A stretch of DNA of 39,970 bases from NCBI GenBank assembly GCA_025451535.1, contig JANWKE010000057.1, positions 1-39,970 on the forward strand, in the 5' to 3' direction. A program made the position numbers and the translations under genes. Below, in pieces: positions 2,679 through 11,542 of this stretch. This DNA comes from Verrucomicrobiia bacterium (GTDB lineage Bacteria > Verrucomicrobiota > Verrucomicrobiia > Limisphaerales > UBA11358). Position 1 is the stretch's first letter; every line of letters starts with the position of its first letter. The notes beneath the pieces were generated by a model. The model ran no database searches. It was not told the origin of the DNA and worked only from the letters and a program-made list of their open reading frames with translations.

Positions 2679-3311
2679 TTAAATTGCTCCGGCTTTCAAC
2701 CGTTTCTCTGCTTCCGGCTGCAACAACTCGATCAGCTGGCGTTCGGAATAAGGTTGGTAAGCATTCCAACGGTTCCCGGTGGTCGGCAAGGGAATGAGGA
2801 TGTCGTCTGAATTCCGGTGAAGCCAGACGGCGACAAAAAGGATGGACGGGCAGTCCAAACGGCGAAGTTCATAATCCTGTTTTTGGATTTGCGGCAAGGA
2901 TTCCGCTCTCCGGATCGCCTCGAGGGTTTCCCTGGAAAAATCAGTGGTGTCCAGACCGGCAAATTTCAGCGCAGTCCCATTGGTTGGGTCGGCCCTCAAT
3001 TCGGCTGCGCCCACGGCGTTGGTTCCGTGCATCAACAGATACCGCCAGGTGCCGGCCCGGGCCGGCGGGAGTAATTGACCGGAAACCAGATTTGTCAGCC
3101 CGACAGAATAATCCTGGAAAGGATGGGCGATGGTTAAATCTTCAATTTGAAAACCGCCGAGGTAACGGGAGACGCTGCGGGAGAGCCCCTTAAACGCTTC
3201 CCGGATTACTTGTTGTCCTCCGTCCGGAGCTTTGGGATAGATGATGGCCGCGGGACAATTCAAACCGCCGCTCAAAACGACCGCGAAGTAGAGGAGGAGT
3301 TTGGGGTTCAT
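2679..3311 (-). CDS. Exported protein, 'WLHxxSDDIxIPLP' paralogue 1
   Basis: A 210-residue secreted protein with a signal peptide (residues 1-22, possible cleavage near NCPAA-I). It is one of three adjacent paralogues (also 3324-3821 and 3818-4705). All share an N-terminal 'AIxYxxxPxGxxQI' stretch, a central 'LPQxxKxxYExRxL' motif and a C-terminal core, here 'AVWLHRNSDDILIPLP' then 'RWNAYQPYSE', ending in a basic helix. No known domain is recognised. It is the last gene of the minus-strand array, faces the end of the DUF4340 gene, and lies 12 bp downstream of its paralogue. Its first 42 bases belong to the repeated signal-peptide sequence described separately. The conserved Trp, His, Asp-Asp and Arg-Trp could form a site, but no function can be claimed. 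Confidence 0.75.
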   Translation of the reverse strand: MNPKLLLYFAVVLSGGLNCPAAIIYPKAPDGGQQVIREAFKGLSRSVSRYLGGFQIEDLTIAHPFQDYSVGLTNLVSGQLLPPARAGTWRYLLMHGTNAVGAAELRADPTNGTALKFAGLDTTDFSRETLEAIRRAESLPQIQKQDYELRRLDCPSILFVAVWLHRNSDDILIPLPTTGNRWNAYQPYSERQLIELLQPEAEKRLKAGAI

Positions 3312-3323
3312 CGCTTATTTGAA

Positions 3324-3821
3324 TCAATCATAGCCGGGAGATTTTAGCCTCTTCTTTGCCTCTGACTTCAATAGTTTAATCATCTGGCTCTCTGAATAGG
3401 GGTGATAGGCATTCCATCTTTCGAAAGTGAGAGGCAGCGGAATGATGATATCGTCCGATTCTCCATGCAACCACACCGCCACGAAAAGAATTGCCGGAAC
3501 GTCCAAGAGACGGGGCTCATAATCGTGCTTTTTGACTTGAGGCAATAGTTCTGCCTCTCGCAGTGCCTCCGGTATTTCATTGTCAAAACGATCTCCGCTG
3601 AGACTATATCTCGATGCCTCAGCCACAGAAAGAAACTGTCCCAAAGCTAAATTAGTCAATGCAACTCTGTAGATTCGTCCCGGGGTCTTAAGGTCAATGT
3701 TGGTGCCGACAATCTGCCGCTCGCCATCTGGGGACAAGGAATAAACGATGGCCGCAGCGCATTTATGGCCAAACAAACCGCTCAAAAGGAGCGCGAGGCA
3801 GAGGAGATGTTTGAGTTTCAT
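3324..3821 (-). CDS. Exported protein, 'WLHxxSDDIxIPLP' paralogue 2
   Basis: A 165-residue secreted paralogue of its two neighbours. The signal peptide 'MKLKHLLCLALLLSGLFG' ends near KCAAA-I. The mature part keeps 'AIVYSLSPDGERQIV', 'LPQVKKHDYEPRLLD' and 'AVWLHGESDDIIIPLP' followed by 'RWNAYHPYSE', but lacks most of the middle section of the other two copies, including the 'TWRYxLMxGTN' segment. This is the shortest copy and looks internally deleted, though the frame is intact. Its ATG overlaps the stop of the upstream paralogue by four bases (ATGA at 3821-3818), which suggests translational coupling. Function unknown. Confidence 0.75.
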   Translation of the reverse strand: MKLKHLLCLALLLSGLFGHKCAAAIVYSLSPDGERQIVGTNIDLKTPGRIYRVALTNLALGQFLSVAEASRYSLSGDRFDNEIPEALREAELLPQVKKHDYEPRLLDVPAILFVAVWLHGESDDIIIPLPLTFERWNAYHPYSESQMIKLLKSEAKKRLKSPGYD

Positions 3822-4705
3822 GACCTTTGGTCGGTTATCTTTTCCAGAATATCAACTTGTTTCACGTCATTGAAAAGGCCCTCGTAGGTCACTTTGACTC
3901 TGTAATTCAATCTACCACACTCGCTTGACGTTCCTTGCAATGTGAAAATCTGAATATGGGACGTCACCTTCTGATATGGCCCACTCATGCCATAAAAAGC
4001 AATGGTGCCGCATTTTCCGTCATGAGCTTTTTCATAATCCATCATCGCCTTTGTATAAATAGTGTAATCCGGCTGTCTGGGCGGATTAATGTTAAGTTTC
4101 GCCCACGCCGCTCTTTGTCTCTCCATTATTGGTTTTAAAATTCCAACTATTTCGTGTTCTGAATAAAGCCGGTATGCATCCCATCTATTCCACCTATCAG
4201 GCAGCGGGATGACAATGTCGTCTGATTGGCCGTGGAACCAAATCGCAGAGAAGAAAAGAGGCGCCACGTTCAAACAACGGAGTTCATAATTTTGCTTTTT
4301 TACCTGCGGCAACTGCTCCGCTACCCGCACCCCCTCAAGCGTAGGATTGTCAAAATGAGATTTACCAAGGGAAACAAATTTTAATTTTTCGCCGGCTCTC
4401 AAGTCCGCGGACCCAACAGGGTTGGTTCCTTGCATGAGCGGGTAGCGCCAGGTAACAAGTTGCGCCGTGGAAAGAAATTTTCCCGGCGTCAATTCGCCGC
4501 CGGCATATTCTGCGAATGGATCGGCTATGGTCAAATCCGCGACATTGGTAATACCCAATGGTTTGAGAAGTTGTGGATCAAGATACTTCTCCACGATTTG
4601 TTTTCCGCCCTCCGGCGCTTTGGGATAGGTGATGGCCGCATGGCAATTATAGGTGAGTCGGTCGCTCAAAACGAGTGCGAGGCAGAGGAGAAGTTTGGGG
4701 TTCAT
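3818..4705 (-). CDS. Exported protein, 'WLHxxSDDIxIPLP' paralogue 3 with extra C-terminal domain
   Basis: A 295-residue secreted protein starting with 'MNPKLLLCLALVLSDRL'; a cleavage site is likely near CHAA-I. Residues ~25-185 match the paralogue at 2679-3311 over their length, including 'DLTIADPFAEY', 'TWRYPLMQGTNPVGSADLRA', 'LPQVKKQNYELRCL' and 'IWFHGQSDDIVIPLP'. It then carries about 110 residues absent from the other two ('PPRQPDYTIYTKAMMDYEKA' onward), a possible second small domain with two cysteines (KCG and SECG). It overlaps the genes on both sides by ATGA (4705-4702 and 3821-3818). The longest copy may be closest to the ancestral form, or it gained a domain; the sequence does not decide. 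Function unknown. Confidence 0.75.
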   Translation of the reverse strand: MNPKLLLCLALVLSDRLTYNCHAAITYPKAPEGGKQIVEKYLDPQLLKPLGITNVADLTIADPFAEYAGGELTPGKFLSTAQLVTWRYPLMQGTNPVGSADLRAGEKLKFVSLGKSHFDNPTLEGVRVAEQLPQVKKQNYELRCLNVAPLFFSAIWFHGQSDDIVIPLPDRWNRWDAYRLYSEHEIVGILKPIMERQRAAWAKLNINPPRQPDYTIYTKAMMDYEKAHDGKCGTIAFYGMSGPYQKVTSHIQIFTLQGTSSECGRLNYRVKVTYEGLFNDVKQVDILEKITDQRS

Positions 4706-5691
4706 AACCGGTTGGAACCAATCTTGTCTATCTGTTGCGGTGTGTGTCCGTGAGTATATTTGTAAAGGCTTGACGGAACAGCGACCCGATAAGTTTTATC
4801 GTCCACGCTGATTTCAATCTTTCCCCAACATCGCAAATTGCCTCCATTTCGAGCGATGGTATACTCGTTACTTCGTTCCATTCCACCGTCCTGAATATGA
4901 ACATCAATGCAATGGCTGCCGATGATTGCCCCGTTGGCATCTAAAACTCGCAAAGCGGTTGCCGGCGAATTGATTTCCCATGAAGTCGAGGTGCCGATTT
5001 TGACATCTTCGCGATAGAGCACAACTTGGCTTTCTGCCTCATTCGAATTGGATTGAATCAGAGACAAGCGCCAGCCGTTTTGAATGTGCCCCAGATCATA
5101 ATGCACACTTTGCCAGCGCACCACGTGATCGTGGCCGGTCAATAATTTCATGGGTGGAATAAATGTCGGCGGACCAGCTGGAATGGAAGGCGGAAGCGGG
5201 TCCGCCGGATTCCGGTCAAAGCCATAGGGAATTTCCAACCAATACCGATCTTGGCCGATGGTGACCTCAATCCAACATTCTCCAAGCTCGTTTGTTCCCC
5301 ATGGGAAATAGGTCATTACTTGCGGAGCGTATTTTCCATCGGGAAGACGTGCTGACCAGCTGGTGGAAATCGGACGATTCAGAGTTATCCTTCCTTCCGT
5401 CGTTGGCTCAACGACTTCTCCATTCGCGCGATACAACCGGGCCGTAATGGCATTGGTTTTGAAAAATCGGAATCCCTGCTGGATGTTCATAATCTCCAAC
5501 TGGAGCCCAAGCGAGATTTGCCCCCATTGTTCGCCAGAACTAACAACAAAATCTGGAGCGCTGGGCCATGGATAAAGGATGTACTCCCAAACGTTGGTCA
5601 GTTTTTGCGGCTGGCTACTCGACTGTGCTTTACTGGTGAACAAACCGACGCTCAAAACGAGCGCGAGGCAGAGGAGGAGTTTGGAGTTCAT
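4702..5691 (-). CDS. Hypothetical exported protein
   Basis: A 329-residue secreted protein starting 'MNSKLLLCLALVLSVGLF', with likely cleavage after SKA-Q. The mature part is rich in Trp, Pro, Gly and beta-forming residues. It contains a Pro-rich linker around residues 165-185 ('PADPLPPSIPAGPP'), suggesting two beta domains joined by a hinge. No family is recognised. The start overlaps a 22-residue reading frame (5688-5756) by ATGA and its stop overlaps the next gene by ATGA. Base composition is more AT-rich than in the core genes further right. It belongs to the array of genes that share a signal-peptide sequence. Confidence 0.7.
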   Translation of the reverse strand: MNSKLLLCLALVLSVGLFTSKAQSSSQPQKLTNVWEYILYPWPSAPDFVVSSGEQWGQISLGLQLEIMNIQQGFRFFKTNAITARLYRANGEVVEPTTEGRITLNRPISTSWSARLPDGKYAPQVMTYFPWGTNELGECWIEVTIGQDRYWLEIPYGFDRNPADPLPPSIPAGPPTFIPPMKLLTGHDHVVRWQSVHYDLGHIQNGWRLSLIQSNSNEAESQVVLYREDVKIGTSTSWEINSPATALRVLDANGAIIGSHCIDVHIQDGGMERSNEYTIARNGGNLRCWGKIEISVDDKTYRVAVPSSLYKYTHGHTPQQIDKIGSNRL

Positions 5692-5756
5692 GGGTTACCT
5701 TTAATGACTACAGCGTTTGACTGAAGCTTTCCTTTCCAGAAATTCAGCAGTTTCAT
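5688..5756 (-). CDS. Possible 22-residue coupling ORF
   Basis: The ATG at 5756 lies two bases downstream of the stop of the upstream gene (5757) and opens a frame encoding 'MKLLNFWKGKLQSNAVVIKG' plus two residues. It ends with a TGA that overlaps the next ATG as ATGA (5691-5688). It therefore fills the 65-bp spacer exactly. No strong Shine-Dalgarno site was seen. It could be a coupling ORF that carries ribosomes to the next gene, a remnant of a lost gene, or chance. Low confidence as a functional peptide. Confidence 0.25.
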   Translation of the reverse strand: MKLLNFWKGKLQSNAVVIKGNP

Positions 5757-6281
5757 TCATGCCATGTCTCCGTTGATGTTGTCTGCGCCAGTGCCACGAA
5801 ATTGCACCGAAATCTCATAGCGACCGGGTTTTAACTTGAATTCATCGCCAGTAGTCGGCGAGACGAATTGGTCCAGGCGTAGTTCGAGCGTGTAGGTGGA
5901 ACCAGACCGAAGCGGAACAACATAATCATCCATCCGGCCAGCGAGCCCCGCGAACCTTCTATCTGCGAAGATGAATTCCCCGGGCTTCCCGCCGCTGTCT
6001 GTGACGATGAGATGAATTTTGCCGGGAATCAGAAATCTGCCATTGGCCAGCATTTCACCCAGGTTCAGGCACACATCTTTTTCTCCTGCATTTTTAATTG
6101 CGACTTCAAACTCTGAATCAGCTCGATTACCAGACGCTGAAACAGAAAGCGACATTTGAAGGCCGTTGGCCATGGGGCCTGATTGGTGGTTTCTAAGAGA
6201 TTGGCGGGCACTTGTCGTCGAACAGCCGAACAAACCGCAGCTCAACACGAGCGCCAGGCAGAGGAGGAATTTGGGTTTCAT
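5757..6281 (-). CDS. Putative lipoprotein
   Basis: The start is taken as the ATG at 6281 ('MKPKFLLCLALVLSCGLFGC') because this matches the conserved start of its neighbours; an in-frame TTG lies 12 bases upstream. The lipobox LFGC at residues 17-20 predicts lipidation. The mature ~155 residues look like one Ig-like beta sandwich: 'SEFEVAIKNAGEKDVCLNLG', 'IHLIVTDSGGKPGEF', 'YTLELRLDQF' and 'LKPGRYEISVQF'. This resembles domains in BsuPI-type inhibitors and other periplasmic adhesion or inhibitor folds, but this is a loose pattern match. Part of the shared-signal array; function unknown. Confidence 0.7.
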   Translation of the reverse strand: MKPKFLLCLALVLSCGLFGCSTTSARQSLRNHQSGPMANGLQMSLSVSASGNRADSEFEVAIKNAGEKDVCLNLGEMLANGRFLIPGKIHLIVTDSGGKPGEFIFADRRFAGLAGRMDDYVVPLRSGSTYTLELRLDQFVSPTTGDEFKLKPGRYEISVQFRGTGADNINGDMA

Positions 6282-6305
6282 GGGCTTGTTCAATGTTGGC
6301 GTCTT

Positions 6306-6806
6306 TCACTTATCGTCAAGTCCTCCTGAACTGCCATAAACTTTGGCGTGATAGACTTTGAGGTTCTTATATCCGCCGGCGAGATCAATCACGTTTCCCG
6401 GCGGATATTGAGGAATACGACTGTCAAGATCGCCAAACAAATACAGCTTACTGCCATCACACCAAAGGGGACGACTTTTGACGTAATTGATTTGGCCCAG
6501 GAAACGAAAATGGCGGTCGAAGAATGCAATGAAATTGAGACCGTGCGGCGACTTTTGATCGGCAATGACTGCGCGCTGGTCGGCAATATAAATAATCTCA
6601 CCATGCGAAGTGACCAGTTGCCCCACGTGCGAAAAATGGGTCAGGAACAACTCATGTCCATCTGGGAAATCCGTTTCATTCTGTTTGGCGGAAGCCAGCA
6701 ATGCCGCGCGGACATCGAACGGCTGGTTCGAAGTCGAAGTACAACCACTCAGCACGAAACCTAAAATGAGCGCCAGGCAGAGGAGGAGTTTAGAGTTCAC
6801 ATTCAT
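6306..6806 (-). CDS. Putative lipoprotein
   Basis: A 166-residue protein starting 'MNVNSKLLLCLALILGF', with lipobox LSGC around residues 19-22. The first four residues differ from the other array members because two codons precede the conserved SKLLL stretch; the start overlaps the upstream stop by ATGA (6806-6803), which supports this choice. The mature part has strand-rich segments ('HGEIIYIADQRAVIADQ', 'FIAFFDRHFRFLGQINYV', 'GSKLYLFGDLD') that read like beta-propeller blades, too few to make a full propeller. Function unknown. Confidence 0.7.
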   Translation of the reverse strand: MNVNSKLLLCLALILGFVLSGCTSTSNQPFDVRAALLASAKQNETDFPDGHELFLTHFSHVGQLVTSHGEIIYIADQRAVIADQKSPHGLNFIAFFDRHFRFLGQINYVKSRPLWCDGSKLYLFGDLDSRIPQYPPGNVIDLAGGYKNLKVYHAKVYGSSGGLDDK

Positions 6807-7354
6807 TCAACAATCTGCTTCAAGACACGCTCCCAAATAATGTTGTAGTTCGTGCTCCACGGAAACATGCGCAGGTGCCCGGCAGGAGCATCTGTTTCAA
6901 AAGCCGTCAAATCCATTTCCACGATGTAGCTTGTGCCGGGTTGTGGCAGGCTGTCCAAGTTCGTGCTCAATACAACTGTGCCCAAATTAAAATCCAATCC
7001 GGCGTCCTGCCACCCGCCAATCCAATTTGTCGGTCGAGGCTCGCCTACCGGCCAAGCAAATAGCTTGCCCAAAACCACCGTCACGGCATTTGAGCCGATT
7101 ACCAAGTTCGTGGATTCAAATTCGTTGGTGTCAAAAGTCACGGAAAGCATGCCTGCCATTCTTTCAATTTTTAGTTTCGTGGGAACGCGAACTGAAACCC
7201 GGTGTGTGATTAAAAAATTGACGTTGGTGATTGACGGAAGCATCAGAAAGCCATGCCAATTGGTGGGTTCTGGTGTATCTTGAGCAACGGCAGAACTGCC
7301 AAGCAGAATGCCGCTCAAAACGAGCGCGAGGTAGAGGAGGAGTTTGGAGTTCAT
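6803..7354 (-). CDS. Hypothetical exported protein
   Basis: Start set at the ATG at 7354 ('MNSKLLLYLALVLSGILLG'), matching the conserved start of the array; an upstream in-frame TTG at 7390 would add 12 residues from the spacer and is unlikely. Cleavage is likely after AVA-Q, giving a secreted protein of ~160 residues. The mature part is rich in Thr-Asn pairs ('PTNW', 'STNLD', 'STNYN') and beta-forming residues, with 'PGTSYIVEMDLTAF' near the end. No family recognised. Its stop overlaps the next gene by ATGA, and the 29-bp spacer upstream contains the word 'TAAATCATAAATC', also seen in other spacers of this genome. Confidence 0.7.
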   Translation of the reverse strand: MNSKLLLYLALVLSGILLGSSAVAQDTPEPTNWHGFLMLPSITNVNFLITHRVSVRVPTKLKIERMAGMLSVTFDTNEFESTNLVIGSNAVTVVLGKLFAWPVGEPRPTNWIGGWQDAGLDFNLGTVVLSTNLDSLPQPGTSYIVEMDLTAFETDAPAGHLRMFPWSTNYNIIWERVLKQIVE

Positions 7355-7383
7355 GGTTTGCTGGCCGGCTCGTAAATCATAAA

Positions 7384-7881
7384 TCACCAATCCAGAGGAA
7401 TCGGCGGTGGTGCAATGAGACCACCCATACCAGGCGGCAAAGGCTTAGGCTGGAGTTTATCAAACCGCTCCTGAATCCCAAGTTCCAACGGCGTGGTATC
7501 AATCCAATACATTATGTCTCCGTTCTCGAACCGAATCCGAATATTCCGTCCTTTGTCCACAGGTGCGGTAGTGCGAATGACGACATAATTGGAACCGTGC
7601 TCCACAACACGGTAATGAAACGACACGGCCTGATAGCCATACCACGCTTTACCACCCCACACAATTTCCGCGCCATGTGAGTAGTTTACGACCATGTTTT
7701 CAGGCATGTGTTTGAACCGCTCGATTGTCTCTGGCGGCGCGTTGGATGTTGCCGCCGCAGTCGCATAGCGATTGAGAACCCAAGTACCCTGCAACCTTGC
7801 GTCATCTCTGCGCGTCGCACAACCAGAGAACCAGACACCGCCCAAAACGAGCGCGAGGTAGAGGGGCAGTCTGGAGTTCAT
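7384..7881 (-). CDS. Putative lipoprotein, lipocalin-like
   Basis: A 165-residue protein starting 'MNSRLPLYLALVLGGVWFSG', with lipobox FSGC around residues 18-21. The mature protein begins 'RLQGTWVLNRY', the G-x-W start typical of small lipocalin-like or META-like beta-barrel lipoproteins. It continues with regular strands ('MVVNYSHGAEIVW', 'VSFHYRVVEHGSNYVVIRTT', 'IRIRFENGDIMYWID'), consistent with an eight-stranded barrel that binds a small ligand. A Pro-rich tail ends it. The fold assignment is inference from pattern and length. Its start overlaps a 25-residue ORF remnant (7878-7955) by ATGA. Confidence 0.7.
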   Translation of the reverse strand: MNSRLPLYLALVLGGVWFSGCATRRDDARLQGTWVLNRYATAAATSNAPPETIERFKHMPENMVVNYSHGAEIVWGGKAWYGYQAVSFHYRVVEHGSNYVVIRTTAPVDKGRNIRIRFENGDIMYWIDTTPLELGIQERFDKLQPKPLPPGMGGLIAPPPIPLDW

Positions 7882-7955
7882 GGTTTGGGTTTAAGAAATT
7901 GATCAATGTCTTTGTCGCGCCTTTTGTAATCGTGCCAGAGTTCACCTAGGTTCAT
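7878..7955 (-). pseudogene. 25-residue ORF, C-terminal remnant related to the protein at 9481-10071
   Basis: A short frame encoding 'MNLGELWHDYKRRDKDIDQF' plus five residues. It matches the C-terminus of the protein at 9481-10071 ('LWHDYKRCDTDIARFL'): 11 of 16 aligned residues are identical, and the DNA is clearly alike. It overlaps the end of the Sel1 gene (stop 7942) and the start of the lipocalin-like gene (ATGA at 7881-7878). The same tail also sits directly before an array gene at 9479. This fits a duplicated junction: the end of an upstream gene plus the signal-peptide start of the next. Whether it is translated is unknown. Confidence 0.5.
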
Positions 7956-9479
7956 CGGGAAATTCTTTCGGATGAGGTACAAATGCCCGCGCGCGACGCG
8001 CTCCGTCTAAAATCTCTTCAGGAGTCATGTCTTGGGACAATCTCTCGCGGCCCACGTTCGCTCTTTCTTCTCCTTGGTTGGCGGCGAGAGTCAACCACTT
8101 GTAAGCTTCGGCGGAATCTTTATTCACGCCTGCGCCCAGGATGAAGCAGATGCCTAAACGCAATTCTGCCTTGGCATTTCCTTGATTGGCCGCCAGCCTG
8201 AACCACTTGGCCGCTTGTTCAGCATTGGTCGCCCCGCCCCATCCATTGAAATAGGCGATGCCAAGATTTAATTCAGCTTGATCATAGCCGGCGCTGGCGG
8301 CTTTGCGAAACCACTTGACTGCTTTGACGTCATTGGACTCGACACCATCACCATGACTGTATCGGACACCTAATTCGGTCTGTGCCCATACGCTTCCGTT
8401 TTCAGCCGCCTTGCGATACCATTTAACCGCTTCATTCACGTTTGTCGGTACGCCGTAGCCTTTGGCATACATCATACCGATATAATCACAGGCAACCGGC
8501 AATCCATGATCCGCCGCTTTGCGGAACCATTTCATGGCTTCACCATAATCCTGCGGCACCTGATCGCCGTGAAAATACATCGTGCCGATGTTGACCTCTG
8601 CTGGGGCATAATCCTGTTCAGCCGCTTTCCGATACCAATTCAGAGCTTGCTTGGGATCTGGCGAAACCCCTTTGCCGTAATCATAAATAACACCCAAATT
8701 GTACTGCGATTTAGCATGCCTTGATCCGCCGCCTTGCGTAGCCATTTGGCCGCTTCGACGTAGTCTTGTCCAATTCGATCACCATTCAAGTACATGACAC
8801 CGAGATTTGCCTCGGCATTGATGTCTCCGCGTTCTGCCTCAGCCCGTGTGGAATCGAGATCAGGAATCCAGTTGACCGGCCATTCCTTCACCGTGCGTCC
8901 GTCAGTATCTGTTCTCCAAGCCTTTTCCAAGTGCCACGGTGCGTCATGCGCCGATCGCCCAATGGTGTAGTGATTTGTGAAAGAATCGCCGGTCAAGACC
9001 ACGTGAAATGTTACGACAAATGGATACGTGGCTTTTTGAAGCCACGAAAAAGGCACCGAACTGACGGTTGCATCGCCGTGCTGGTTTTTGCCGAAACCAG
9101 GGAGGCGGCCTTGTTTTTTCAATTCCGACAAGAATTCCCCTGCCGCCTCCATTTCCGATGTGCCGGAACCAGTCAAGATTGAAGCGATGTTGGTTTTCAT
9201 CATCACCGCCATGATCGGCAGGGCTTTCGCCGCATTGGTCGGGACCCGGTTGGAGGCCGACAGGACAAAATTCTCGAAATTACTCACTGCCGCTGGGGCG
9301 AGTTCATTCAGAGAGTTTGTGCTTCCGAGCGCCACGGTTTGGATGTTGGTTGTGCCATTGATGCCCAAGCTCATGACCACTTCTGACTTGGCCGGGGCCG
9401 CGTTGGTTGCTTCCGCCAGCGAGACAATGGTGCTTCTGCTCAAAACGAGTGCGAGGCAGAGGAGGAGTTTTGGGTTCAT
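7942..9479 (-). pseudogene. Sel1-repeat exported protein, interrupted by a one-base frameshift
   Basis: The first frame runs from the ATG at 9479 ('MNPKLLLCLALVLSRSTIV', signal peptide) through ~210 residues without a known domain into a first Sel1 repeat ending 'AAKWLRKAADQG' at about 8718. The next repeats continue in a shifted frame ('HAKSQYNLGVIYDYGKGV...'). Putting back one base at GGC-AT (8716-8720, expected GGC/CAT-like) restores continuous Sel1 spacing. The joined protein has seven Sel1 repeats of 36 residues each, followed by 'RARAFVPHPKEFPDEPR'. Sel1 repeats form helical solenoids used for protein binding. Without repair, the two pieces are a 279-residue protein with one repeat and an ORF lacking a plausible start. 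A sequencing error in a short C run is a real alternative. Confidence 0.75.
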
Positions 9480-9480
9480 T

Positions 9481-10071
9481 TTAGTTCGTTTTGTTTTCTG
9501 TTCCGTTACGGAGAAACCGTGCGATATCCGTGTCGCATCTTTTGTAGTCGTGCCAAAGAGCCGCGCCGTTTCGGTCGCGCACGTTCATGAATTTGACATA
9601 ATCCGCGAACTCAACCCTTTTTCCAGTATTACGATCATAGGCGGCGACGAAATAACCGTCGAAGGCAATTCCAACCCGCTGTGAGTCATCTGACCACAAG
9701 ACCTGAAAGATTGGCAGGCGCTCGCGTGTCCTGACACAAGTCCGCTGATAATTTCTCACAATCGGGTTGGTGGTTCCTTGAAAATCGGGCGCATAGCATT
9801 CCAGCGAATCAAAAATCTTAATCCGTTTCCATCCTTCAACCATGCAGGCGTCGAATCCTGCGTCCGCCAAACCGTAAATCCGAATCTCAATCGTCGGTTT
9901 GCCGGGAACGATGTGACGTTCGTACAGTTCTCCATTTTCCATGACATAGTGAATCTTCCAGGCACCAAATAGTGCAGCGACGACAACGGCCAGCACAAAT
10001 GCAAGTTTGGAGGTCGTTTTCAACGCGAAAGGATGGGTTTGGATCTCACGGCCAATACAACTTTGACTCAA
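9481..10071 (-). CDS. Hypothetical membrane-anchored protein
   Basis: About 196 residues from a TTG at 10071, or 180 from a TTG at 10023 ('MKTTSKLAFVLAVVVAALFG' if read from there). Neither start has a clear Shine-Dalgarno site. One membrane helix lies just after the second start. The outer part has four cysteines ('DACMVEGW', 'LECYAPDF', 'RTCVRT', 'KRCDTD') and strand-like segments ('PTIEIRIYGL', 'IFQVLWSDDSQRVGIAFDGY'). No family recognised. The C-terminal 'LWHDYKRCDTDIARFL' recurs at 7878-7955. It is the first gene of the array, one base upstream of the Sel1 gene, but it lacks the shared signal-peptide sequence. Confidence 0.65.
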   Translation of the reverse strand: MSQSCIGREIQTHPFALKTTSKLAFVLAVVVAALFGAWKIHYVMENGELYERHIVPGKPTIEIRIYGLADAGFDACMVEGWKRIKIFDSLECYAPDFQGTTNPIVRNYQRTCVRTRERLPIFQVLWSDDSQRVGIAFDGYFVAAYDRNTGKRVEFADYVKFMNVRDRNGAALWHDYKRCDTDIARFLRNGTENKTN

Positions 10072-10089
10072 AATTCAATGGCATATTCA

Positions 10090-10212
10090 TTAGACGGATT
10101 GCAAACGGATTTGCTTTGTAGTTTTTGCCTCTTCATTTTCGAGATCATAGACAATCGGAGTCAAAACCCGAACGAACCACAAAGCAACCAGGAAAACGAT
10201 ACTGTCCTGAAT
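10090..10212 (-). pseudogene. Possible truncated membrane-protein remnant
   Basis: In the spacer upstream of 10071, a frame without a usable ATG reads 'DSIVFLVALWFVRVLTPIVY' followed by 'DLENEEAKTTKQIRLQSV' and stop. It looks like one membrane helix with a charged tail. Upstream the frame runs into the palindrome at 10201-10285 and a stop inside it. It may be the end of a gene cut by the repeat, a very short membrane protein with a TTG start (10182), or chance. Confidence 0.25.
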
Positions 10213-10428: not shown

Positions 10429-10507
10429 GCGGGATTGGTGAGGCCCCCGGCTTTTATTTCGCGTAAACTTGCAACCGGCGCGTTCAGCCACTACCTTGCG
10501 CGCGCTT

Positions 10508-11437
10508 ATGGAAAAGGTCATCGTCATCGGTTCAGGCTGCGCGGGCTGGACAGCGGCGCTTTATACGGCTCGCGCCAATCTCCAGCCGCTGGTGCTCGCC
10601 GGCCAGCAGCCCGGCGGCCTGCTCACCACCACCAGCATCGTCGAAAATTATCCCGGCTTTCCCGAAGGCGTGGATGGCTATGAACTGATGACGCGGATGC
10701 AGAAACAGGCGGAACGTTTCGGCGCGCGGGCCAGTTTTGGTTCCGTCGAAGCTGTTGATTTTTCCAAAAGACCGTTTGCGCTCACCGTGGACGGCGAAAA
10801 AGTCGAGGCGCAAACCGTGATTATCGCCACCGGCGCGAGCCACCGGCATCTTGGTGTGCCCGGCGAAGATTTACTGGAAACCAAGGGCGTGACTTACTGT
10901 GCCACGTGCGACGGTGCGTTGCCGGTTTTCCGCAACCAGCCGCTCGTTGTGGTCGGCGGCGGTGATTCCGCCTGCGAAGAAGCGCTTTACCTGACGCGGT
11001 TTGGTTCAGAGATTCATCTGGTCCATCGCCGCGATAAATTGCGTGCGTCCAAAATCATGGCCGAACGCGCGCTGTCGAGCCCCAAAATTAAACCCATTTG
11101 GGATTCAGCTGTAACGGAAGTGCTCGACGTGAAACAGGACAAGGTGACCGGCGTGAAATTGAAGAACCTTAAAACCGGGGCCGAATCGGCTCTGAATTGC
11201 GCCGGCGTGTTCATTGCCATCGGCCACACGCCGAACACGGAAATCTTCAAAGGCCAGATCGAGTTGGACACCAACGGCTTCGTCATTCCCAAAAAGGGTA
11301 CGATGACGAATGTGCCGGGTGTGTTTGTGGCGGGCGATTGCGCGGACCACATTTATCGGCAGGCTGTAACAGCGGCGGGCGCCGGTTGCGCGGCGGCGAT
11401 TGACGCAGAGCGATTTCTGGCGGCGCAGAATCAGTAA
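10508..11437 (+). CDS. trxB: Thioredoxin reductase
   Basis: FAD- and NADPH-dependent flavoenzyme that reduces thioredoxin in the cytoplasm. The 309-residue length fits the low-molecular-weight family. The start at 10508 is chosen because it places the FAD-binding 'VIVIGSGCAGWTAALYTARA' at residue 3; an upstream in-frame TTG would add 13 non-conserved residues. The redox-active CxxC is 'YCATCDG' near residue 135-138. The NADPH-binding 'VVVGGGDSACEEALYL' follows, and a C-terminal FAD motif 'GVFVAGDCADHIYRQAVTAAG' closes it. It stands alone on the plus strand, with an inverted repeat and a converging epimerase gene downstream. Confidence 0.96.
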   Translation: MEKVIVIGSGCAGWTAALYTARANLQPLVLAGQQPGGLLTTTSIVENYPGFPEGVDGYELMTRMQKQAERFGARASFGSVEAVDFSKRPFALTVDGEKVEAQTVIIATGASHRHLGVPGEDLLETKGVTYCATCDGALPVFRNQPLVVVGGGDSACEEALYLTRFGSEIHLVHRRDKLRASKIMAERALSSPKIKPIWDSAVTEVLDVKQDKVTGVKLKNLKTGAESALNCAGVFIAIGHTPNTEIFKGQIELDTNGFVIPKKGTMTNVPGVFVAGDCADHIYRQAVTAAGAGCAAAIDAERFLAAQNQ

Positions 11438-11542
11438 CGCCGGGTTGGCCTAATCCGGCGATTGGCGAACTTGATAGCCCAACATCGCTGTAACCGGGAT
11501 CAGGAGTGAAGAGACGGTTTAAGAAGAGGCCTGACGTTTTGC

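Follow-up and report, generated by a model that had tools for sequence, protein, structure and literature searches.

A near-identical signal-peptide leader ahead of unrelated exported proteins in a bacterium of the Limisphaerales

Nine genes behind one leader

The stretch analysed here (the window) comprises 39,970 nucleotides from a Verrucomicrobiia bacterium (assembly GCA_025451535.1, contig JANWKE010000057.1, positions 1 to 39,970 of the forward strand). At 2679-9479 nine minus-strand open reading frames (ORFs), g1 to g9, open with near-identical DNA of ~42-45 bp from the start codon. This DNA, termed the leader, encodes roughly M-[K/N]-[P/S]-K-L-L-L-C-L-A-L-V-L-S, and the part of each gene behind it is termed the body. 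An earlier note on this DNA ended the array at 3270; the limit was corrected to 2679, since the last gene stops there. The source genome of the window, a 4.4-Mb draft, is designated G000; other G numbers denote genomes of the same genus and L numbers fetched loci. The leader genes of the window are as follows.

7942-9479, minus strand: g1, Sel1-repeat exported protein (Pfam Sel1 in both frames) with a frameshift near 8700; leader 9438-9479, minus strand
7384-7881, minus strand: g2, lipobox protein of no known family; leader 7840-7881
6803-7354, minus strand: g3, of a family common to leader genes of G005, G020, G023 and G025; leader 7313-7354
6306-6800, minus strand: g4, lipobox protein; leader 6759-6800, in register from the GTG at 6800
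5757-6281, minus strand: g5, lipobox protein; leader 6240-6281
4702-5691, minus strand: g6, with an orthologue behind the leader in G005 and one with a strongly diverged signal peptide in G023; leader 5650-5691
3818-4705, minus strand: g7, kin to g8 and g9; leader 4664-4705, in ATGA overlap with the stop codon of g6
3324-3821, minus strand: g8, kin to g7 and g9; leader 3780-3821, in ATGA overlap with the stop codon of g7
2679-3311, minus strand: g9, sole leader gene at the orthologous site of G022; leader 3270-3311

With sequences anchored at the ATG, pairwise identity was at chance level upstream (0.19-0.44 at -20 to -1), high from +1 to +45 and dropped after ~+45, as the earlier note had described for these signal peptides. 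Upstream of the leaders there was at most a weak preference for AAACC in the five bases before the start (63 leaders). The 28 pairs among eight array leaders had 32-41 of 42 bases in common; eight of the nine window leaders had passed the signal-peptide filter, g4, read from an earlier ATG (6806, two codons ahead of the GTG at 6800) and out of register, being left out. Among 101 signal-peptide-like ORFs from 20 stretches of the same genome (312 kb) the best pair reached 27/42, one visibly homologous pair at 31/42 having been set aside. The genome held nine leader matches at ≤3 mismatches over 30 bases, all in this array, and a reversed control pattern gave none at the same setting. Where two leaders of the array encoded the same residue they used the same codon at a rate of 0.83 (278/336), compared with 0.34 among unrelated background signal peptides; for the related bodies of g7 to g9 the figures were 22/71, 35/81 and 25/58. 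It was also found that signal peptides of this genome do not all use the same codons, with leucine encoded by CTC in 16% of 226 leucine codons sampled. Chance or codon bias, by which every signal peptide of the lineage would look alike, is refuted by the confinement of the matches to the array, the ceiling of the background pairs and the low codon agreement of unrelated signal peptides, and is left with a negligible probability.

Two sequence elements proposed within the leader were not supported. A hairpin, CGCTC-GTTTT-GAGCG, at the leader end was not indicated as conserved: pairing stood at 74.2 of 89 per pair and at 74.22 after shuffling, and no covariation was seen in this one leader hairpin tested. 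A likeness of CTCCTCCTC to the anti-Shine-Dalgarno sequence, with a possible effect on translation, had been suggested in the earlier note; the block was not conserved between species: of 79 leaders, 38 had A and 36 had C as the first base of codon 6.

Behind the leader, the bodies in the window were related only among g7, g8 and g9 (3/9), in agreement with the earlier note. A lipobox was reached in g2, g4 and g5 and in no other array gene, as read from the translations.

Leaders, rows and bodies across the genus

The leader was searched for at ≤3 mismatches in 59 genomes, 36 of them of the genus, and was found in 13 (own genome included), all of the same genus; none of the 23 genomes of other genera contained it. 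When 49 genomes of the genus, again with the own genome among them, were searched with a broader pattern, 17 contained it. An exact scan of GTDB r220 contigs returned 20 stretches, of which 18 were titled Verrucomicrobia, Limisphaerales or Verrucomicrobiales, one Betaproteobacteria and one just 'bacterium'. The match in the Betaproteobacteria-titled contig (L061, 1564-1593) came from a bog metagenome and may reflect mis-binning or transfer. A weight matrix, trained on its own hits, collected 67 leaders at 20 loci in 13 species and found zero in shuffled sequence. In an enlarged set 94 leaders scored ≥5 bits and 91 of them ≥18 bits, the maximum in reversed sequence being -14.

The 54 bodies of at least 30 residues behind the 67 leaders (12 species) fell into 43 families (blastp, 1e-3). 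Pfam names on leader genes were Sel1, serpin, WD40-type propellers (two genes), LRR_5, HEAT, GxGYxYP, LysM, DUF2092, M14 carboxypeptidase and, at its cut-off, pectate lyase/beta helix. Ten Pfam families or groups were thus represented among 39 genes scanned (as 40 proteins, g1 being entered as two frames), and 28 of the 39 had no Pfam family above its cut-off. A full-length serpin with the leader is encoded at L039 10399-11625 (Pfam 403 bits), and a simple motif identified a lipobox in 12 of 72 leader members with a body. Tandem duplication of a single ancestral gene, followed by divergence of the bodies until no similarity is left, would agree with the true paralogy of g7, g8 and g9. Since the bodies match Pfam families that differ in fold, such an origin is excluded for the set as a whole, and pectate lyase and serpin moreover have relatives with other signal peptides; the explanation is considered highly improbable. 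Homology of whole genes, named in the earlier note as a finding that would refute its reading, is likewise not what the 43 families show. As a separate observation, a leader lipoprotein in L042 (12227 onward) seems to be cut after 58 residues, and the next ORF resembles a transposase by eye.

The layout of the rows was a repeated unit of leader and body, with up to 11 genes in the longest row, and somewhat under half of the rows closed with a leader that had no body. The frame closed for 91 of the 94 leaders, and 16 of these were body-less (ORF <60 codons). Body-less leaders stood last in their row in 13 of 16 cases, compared with 32 of 91 leaders overall (p=5e-5); in rows of at least two leaders the counts were 8/11 and 18/77 (p=2e-4). 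Of 18 such rows with a readable end, eight finished with a body-less leader. Some body-less leaders are relics (that in L048 has no start codon) or lie near contig ends. A leader started inside the preceding stop codon, as ATGA, in 26 of 65 cases, and the leaders in each locus were all on one strand. The terminal body-less leaders of G015 (L139, 1125) and G014 (L052, 11681) appeared by eye to be followed by a similar short sequence, a similarity absent from the tblastx flank comparison listing.

On a rough tree of the rplB region covering 30 of the 49 genomes, leader presence was patchy (11 changes, compared with a shuffled mean of 10.2), and G022 was not grouped directly with G000. The rows were mostly at different sites: among 35 rows seven locus pairs had a common flank, and only the G000/G022 pair had both flanks in common. 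Such a distribution, together with the existence of body-less leaders, would fit a small mobile element or frequent interspecies transfer that copies leader DNA onto new 5' ends. Against this stand the conservation, which sets in at the start codon and is nearly confined to the leader, the placement on one strand in each locus, and the viral contigs, in which the leader pattern gave zero matches; the explanation is regarded as improbable. In G009 a start-less leader relic was observed at a site whose downstream flank matches that of a G023 leader array (L048 19114 and L138), a possible lost array.

The neighbours of the leaders were compared with the leaders masked. Upstream homology was present in 24 leader pairs (in three of them it lies in a promoter-like block, not in a gene), and in 23 of the 24 the downstream bodies were unrelated. 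Conversely, 27 of 28 pairs with homologous downstream bodies had unrelated sequence upstream, and one pair, within the window, was homologous on both sides. The plainest example is the stretch made up of the g6 3' end and the next leader, which aligned with G023 (77%) and G005 (74%) and led into three different bodies.

The site of the array was compared with G022, a close congener in which the window's gene order is kept (identity 84.6% across the 3.3 kb that end at the g9 leader; 88% over 10457-11443). It carries the g9 orthologue alone, directly behind the promoter-like block, whereas the window has a further gene (gene0) and nine leader genes. The difference may be either gain in G000 or loss in G022. 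In the more distant congeners G011 and G009 no leader was found within 5.5 kb and 10.6 kb, respectively, beyond DUF4340, but the second flank was missing there too, so that the site was anchored on one flank only; in G064 the contig ends at the corresponding site. The features ahead of g1 at this site are listed below.

10053-10094, minus strand: promoter-like block directly ahead of the array, also present at the starts of both G022 leader loci (L046, L047)
9481-10026, minus strand: gene0, leaderless ORF that opens the row; its N-terminus contains a hydrophobic stretch and its start is uncertain
10029-10049, minus strand: possible relic of a first leader with a GTG start, interrupted by gene0; in the alignment it lies where the leaders of L046 and L047 begin

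By blastn, window 10030-10115 aligned with L046 (78%, E 6e-12) and window 10031-10204 with L047 (71%, E 1e-15). The block thus stands at three leader loci of two species (window 10053-10094, minus strand; L046 10082; L047 12415). Its pattern matched only these three source places at ≤12 mismatches in the arrays scanned, gave one weak match (13 mismatches) in L044 and gave nothing at ≤13 mismatches in 20 sampled stretches of G000. The block is a candidate promoter or operator. The relic at 10029-10049 is not significant by similarity alone, 7 of 101 background starts scoring as high.

Individual proteins were followed with and without the leader. Pectate lyase had matches in 37 of 49 genomes of the genus and ten loci were read. 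The leader was present in G026 (70 bits) and G014 (56 bits), and clearly different signal peptides were present in G035, G067, G071, G007 and G021, the mature parts being 78-87% identical. The starts of these five had matrix scores ≤-31, and 7 to 57 of 101 background starts were equally similar. Because the leader pectate lyases of G026 and G014 have a common upstream flank, their leader may represent one event. The pectate lyases of G066, G010 and G028 were not counted as swaps (by gapped comparison, 0, 0 and 1 of 101 background starts scored as high); their starts are possibly decayed leaders.

Serpin had matches in 25 of the 49 genomes. Among 20 loci read the leader was present in G015 only, the next best matrix score being -3.9; the starts in G030, G061 and G059 lay within background, as did that in G020 (7/101 score as high). 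Two further candidates were withdrawn as clean swaps. The start of g6 in G023 outscored every one of the 101 background starts, so that it could be a leader in decay, and for the M14 peptidase the start in G069 (78% identity) resembles a leader with an internal deletion, that in G020 being borderline. In the g9 family, G060 (58% to g9) starts without a leader, the start of G020 C430 resembles part of a leader, and in G066 a leader is present but a normal ATG is lacking.

Conservation of the leader and its interpretation

Synonymous codon agreement of leaders was 0.81 within species and 0.81 between species (63 leaders), values biased upward because leaders were found by DNA similarity, although few scores lay near the threshold. 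For orthologues that both carry the leader (five pairs, of which a single family supplied three), agreement was 0.81 in the leader (35/43) and 0.55 in the body. In ten pairs of ordinary orthologues without leader it was 0.53 in the first 14 codons (30/57) and 0.58 in the body; these ten include one gene counted twice and one cytosolic gene. The difference between 35/43 and 30/57 was significant (p=0.003), also with the duplicate and the cytosolic gene left out (21/40; p=0.009). Since agreement is equal within and between species, recent copying within a genome is insufficient on its own. The leaders are kept alike across the genus, and the excess over ordinary 5' ends suggests either that the DNA or RNA is itself under constraint or that leaders have spread from species to species.

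Leader identity was 33.74 of 42 within species and 33.25 between species, a difference reached in 46 of 500 shuffles. Species-specific homogenisation was clearest at codon 8 position 1 (+0.425) and codon 6 position 1, each with p=0.001, and no other position passes correction for 42 tests; codon 2 position 3 gave p=0.002, and the excess summed over all positions p=0.036. Recent copying or gene conversion of the 5' ends, as put forward in the earlier note, has only partial support, at a few codon positions, and does not account for the equal agreement between species.

These figures bear on the possibility that the leader letters are held by selection, as a translation-start or re-initiation element for overlapping genes or as the target of a regulator, and that the leader is no recombination seam. 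The genes would then have obtained the leader by tandem duplication and 5' fusion, and reshuffling would be ordinary gene turnover. The synonymous identity between species and its excess over ordinary 5' ends are in its favour, as are the lack of a species-level excess at most positions and the ATGA overlaps. Body-less leaders were, moreover, as well conserved as those with a body (55.8 and 56.2 bits; codon agreement 0.84 and 0.80). Selection leaves unexplained the body-less leaders at row ends and the leaders on solitary genes such as pectate lyase, and pairing at the level of shuffled sequence does not indicate a conserved hairpin. It is judged rather unlikely.

The locus is probably a leader-repeat cassette array, in which the constant export leader would also be a recombination seam. 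Sequence comparison shows the leader to be a module common at the DNA level to unrelated folds and patchy within the single genus in which it occurs among the genomes searched. Bodies differ behind it where the upstream sequence is the same, and the leader takes the place of other signal peptides on the same protein. At one site two relatives differ by a block that has a leader at its inner edge. The cassette idea of the earlier note is strengthened by the 43 families in 12 species, the exchange of neighbours at leaders, the pectate lyase orthologues with different signal peptides and the tendency of body-less leaders to end rows.

The module of ~45 bp, repeated ahead of unrelated exported bodies, would run from the start codon through the n-region and h-region of a Sec signal peptide. 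As many leaders start inside the stop codon of the preceding gene, a row may form one operon behind one promoter. Any body that came to lie behind a leader would be at once translated and exported, and the leaders would provide the seam for gain, loss and swap of bodies. The route could be RecA-type recombination between the direct repeats (~45 bp) or the action of some recombinase. Recombination between leaders could delete, duplicate, insert or swap a body and would give the order leader-body-leader, hence a body-less leader at the end; exchange between leaders would also help to keep their DNA alike.

Several points weigh against this interpretation. No recombinase, circle or excision product was seen, the look for a recombinase being limited to a few neighbours in the window. 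Ten of the 18 rows of at least two leaders, the window included, lack a terminal body-less leader, and some body-less leaders may be pseudogenes or ends of draft assemblies. All arrays are from draft assemblies, and nearly all of the 20 titled GTDB stretches are marked metagenome-assembled. The leader pairs used in the comparison of neighbours are not independent, the g7-g9 family supplying many. Bodies common to species have diverged like ordinary genes (same-residue codon identity 0.55 and 0.58), and therefore cassettes need not move often. Frequent exchange within a genome is not indicated either, since leaders of one genome resemble each other no more than they resemble those of other species, a few positions aside.

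A dedicated cassette system, in which each body lies between two leaders and is excised or enters by leader-to-leader recombination, a captured frame being exported at once, is a possible but doubtful extension of the favoured reading. Free-living Verrucomicrobia would then possess an integron-like system coupled to export, in which the site of recombination is part of the coding sequence.

Known systems and remaining features of the window

The nearest known kind appears to be the erp genes of Borrelia burgdorferi (ospE/ospF/elp, with the 'upstream homology box'). According to the review PMC10016077 these have one conserved leader, bodies of many independent origins and frequent recombination; the loci are mono- or bicistronic on cp32 prophages, the promoter is shared as well and the products are surface lipoproteins. 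The likeness lies in the conserved leader with independently originated bodies, here of 43 families, and the present array would be a variant of the same kind. It differs in that the leader recurs within a single row, which may comprise up to 11 genes, almost nothing is common upstream of each ATG, and a shared block is found only ahead of the G000 and G022 rows. The source is environmental, a lipobox is present in 12/72 members, enzymes and a serpin are found among the bodies, and rows often close with a body-less leader.

The vsp and vlhA genes of Mycoplasma have a conserved signal peptide ahead of variable bodies and are clustered; they form one repeat-rich antigen family with phase switching, whereas the bodies here are of unrelated folds, each species being represented by a single assembly. 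Phytoplasma secreted proteins have a common SVM signal sequence ahead of diverse proteins, in transposon-like units of plant pathogens. SVM gene clusters are mentioned in PMC3743221. A transposon-like unit was not seen here, the family scan covering the neighbours in the window. A one-direction row of unrelated bodies, separated by a repeat and behind one promoter-like block, is shared with integrons. Cassettes of integrons carry a 3' attC site, whereas the repeat here is the coding start of each gene; the one leader hairpin tested gave no sign of a conserved fold, and no integrase was present among five window neighbours scanned. A tandem paralogue family differs from the window, in which only 3/9 genes have homologous bodies. 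No literature on such arrays in Verrucomicrobia was found in a search that left most subscription papers outside.

The comparison suggests that these bacteria combine varying sets of exported proteins with a single constant export tag. Signal peptides appear here to behave as DNA modules swapped onto unrelated proteins, in environmental bacteria that are not expected to face the pressure from host immunity by which such systems are usually explained. The array offers a testable case of exon-shuffling-like evolution in bacteria, and in the 30-base pattern it provides a tag by which the diversifying secretome of a little-studied lineage, known here from metagenomes of peat, soil and freshwater, can be searched.

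The array site is flanked by ABC_transp_aux, DUF4340 and Pyr_redox_2 genes. Pfam gave no match for gene0, and NCBIfam gave none above its cut-off for ten window proteins including gene0. Relatives of the g9 and g6 families were not found in the PDB by sequence; structure prediction for the g9 family had a mean predicted local distance difference test score of 39, too low for use of the fold. The Sel1 repeats of g1 are broken by the frameshift (window ~8640-8745), and the remaining repeats continue in another frame to 7942; this is either an assembly error or a pseudogene. One further feature lies ahead of the g2 leader.

7890-7952, minus strand: duplicated remnant of the gene0 3' end (duplication scar), supported by tblastx (62% over 21 residues, E 8e-5) and a DNA alignment

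The array had been described as AT-rich compared with its neighbours. GC content per kilobase was 0.48-0.52 across 3001-10000 and 0.55-0.62 in most of the remaining window, which agrees with that description; the contrast is not exclusive to the array, four further kilobases outside 3001-10000 also having a GC content of 0.51-0.53.

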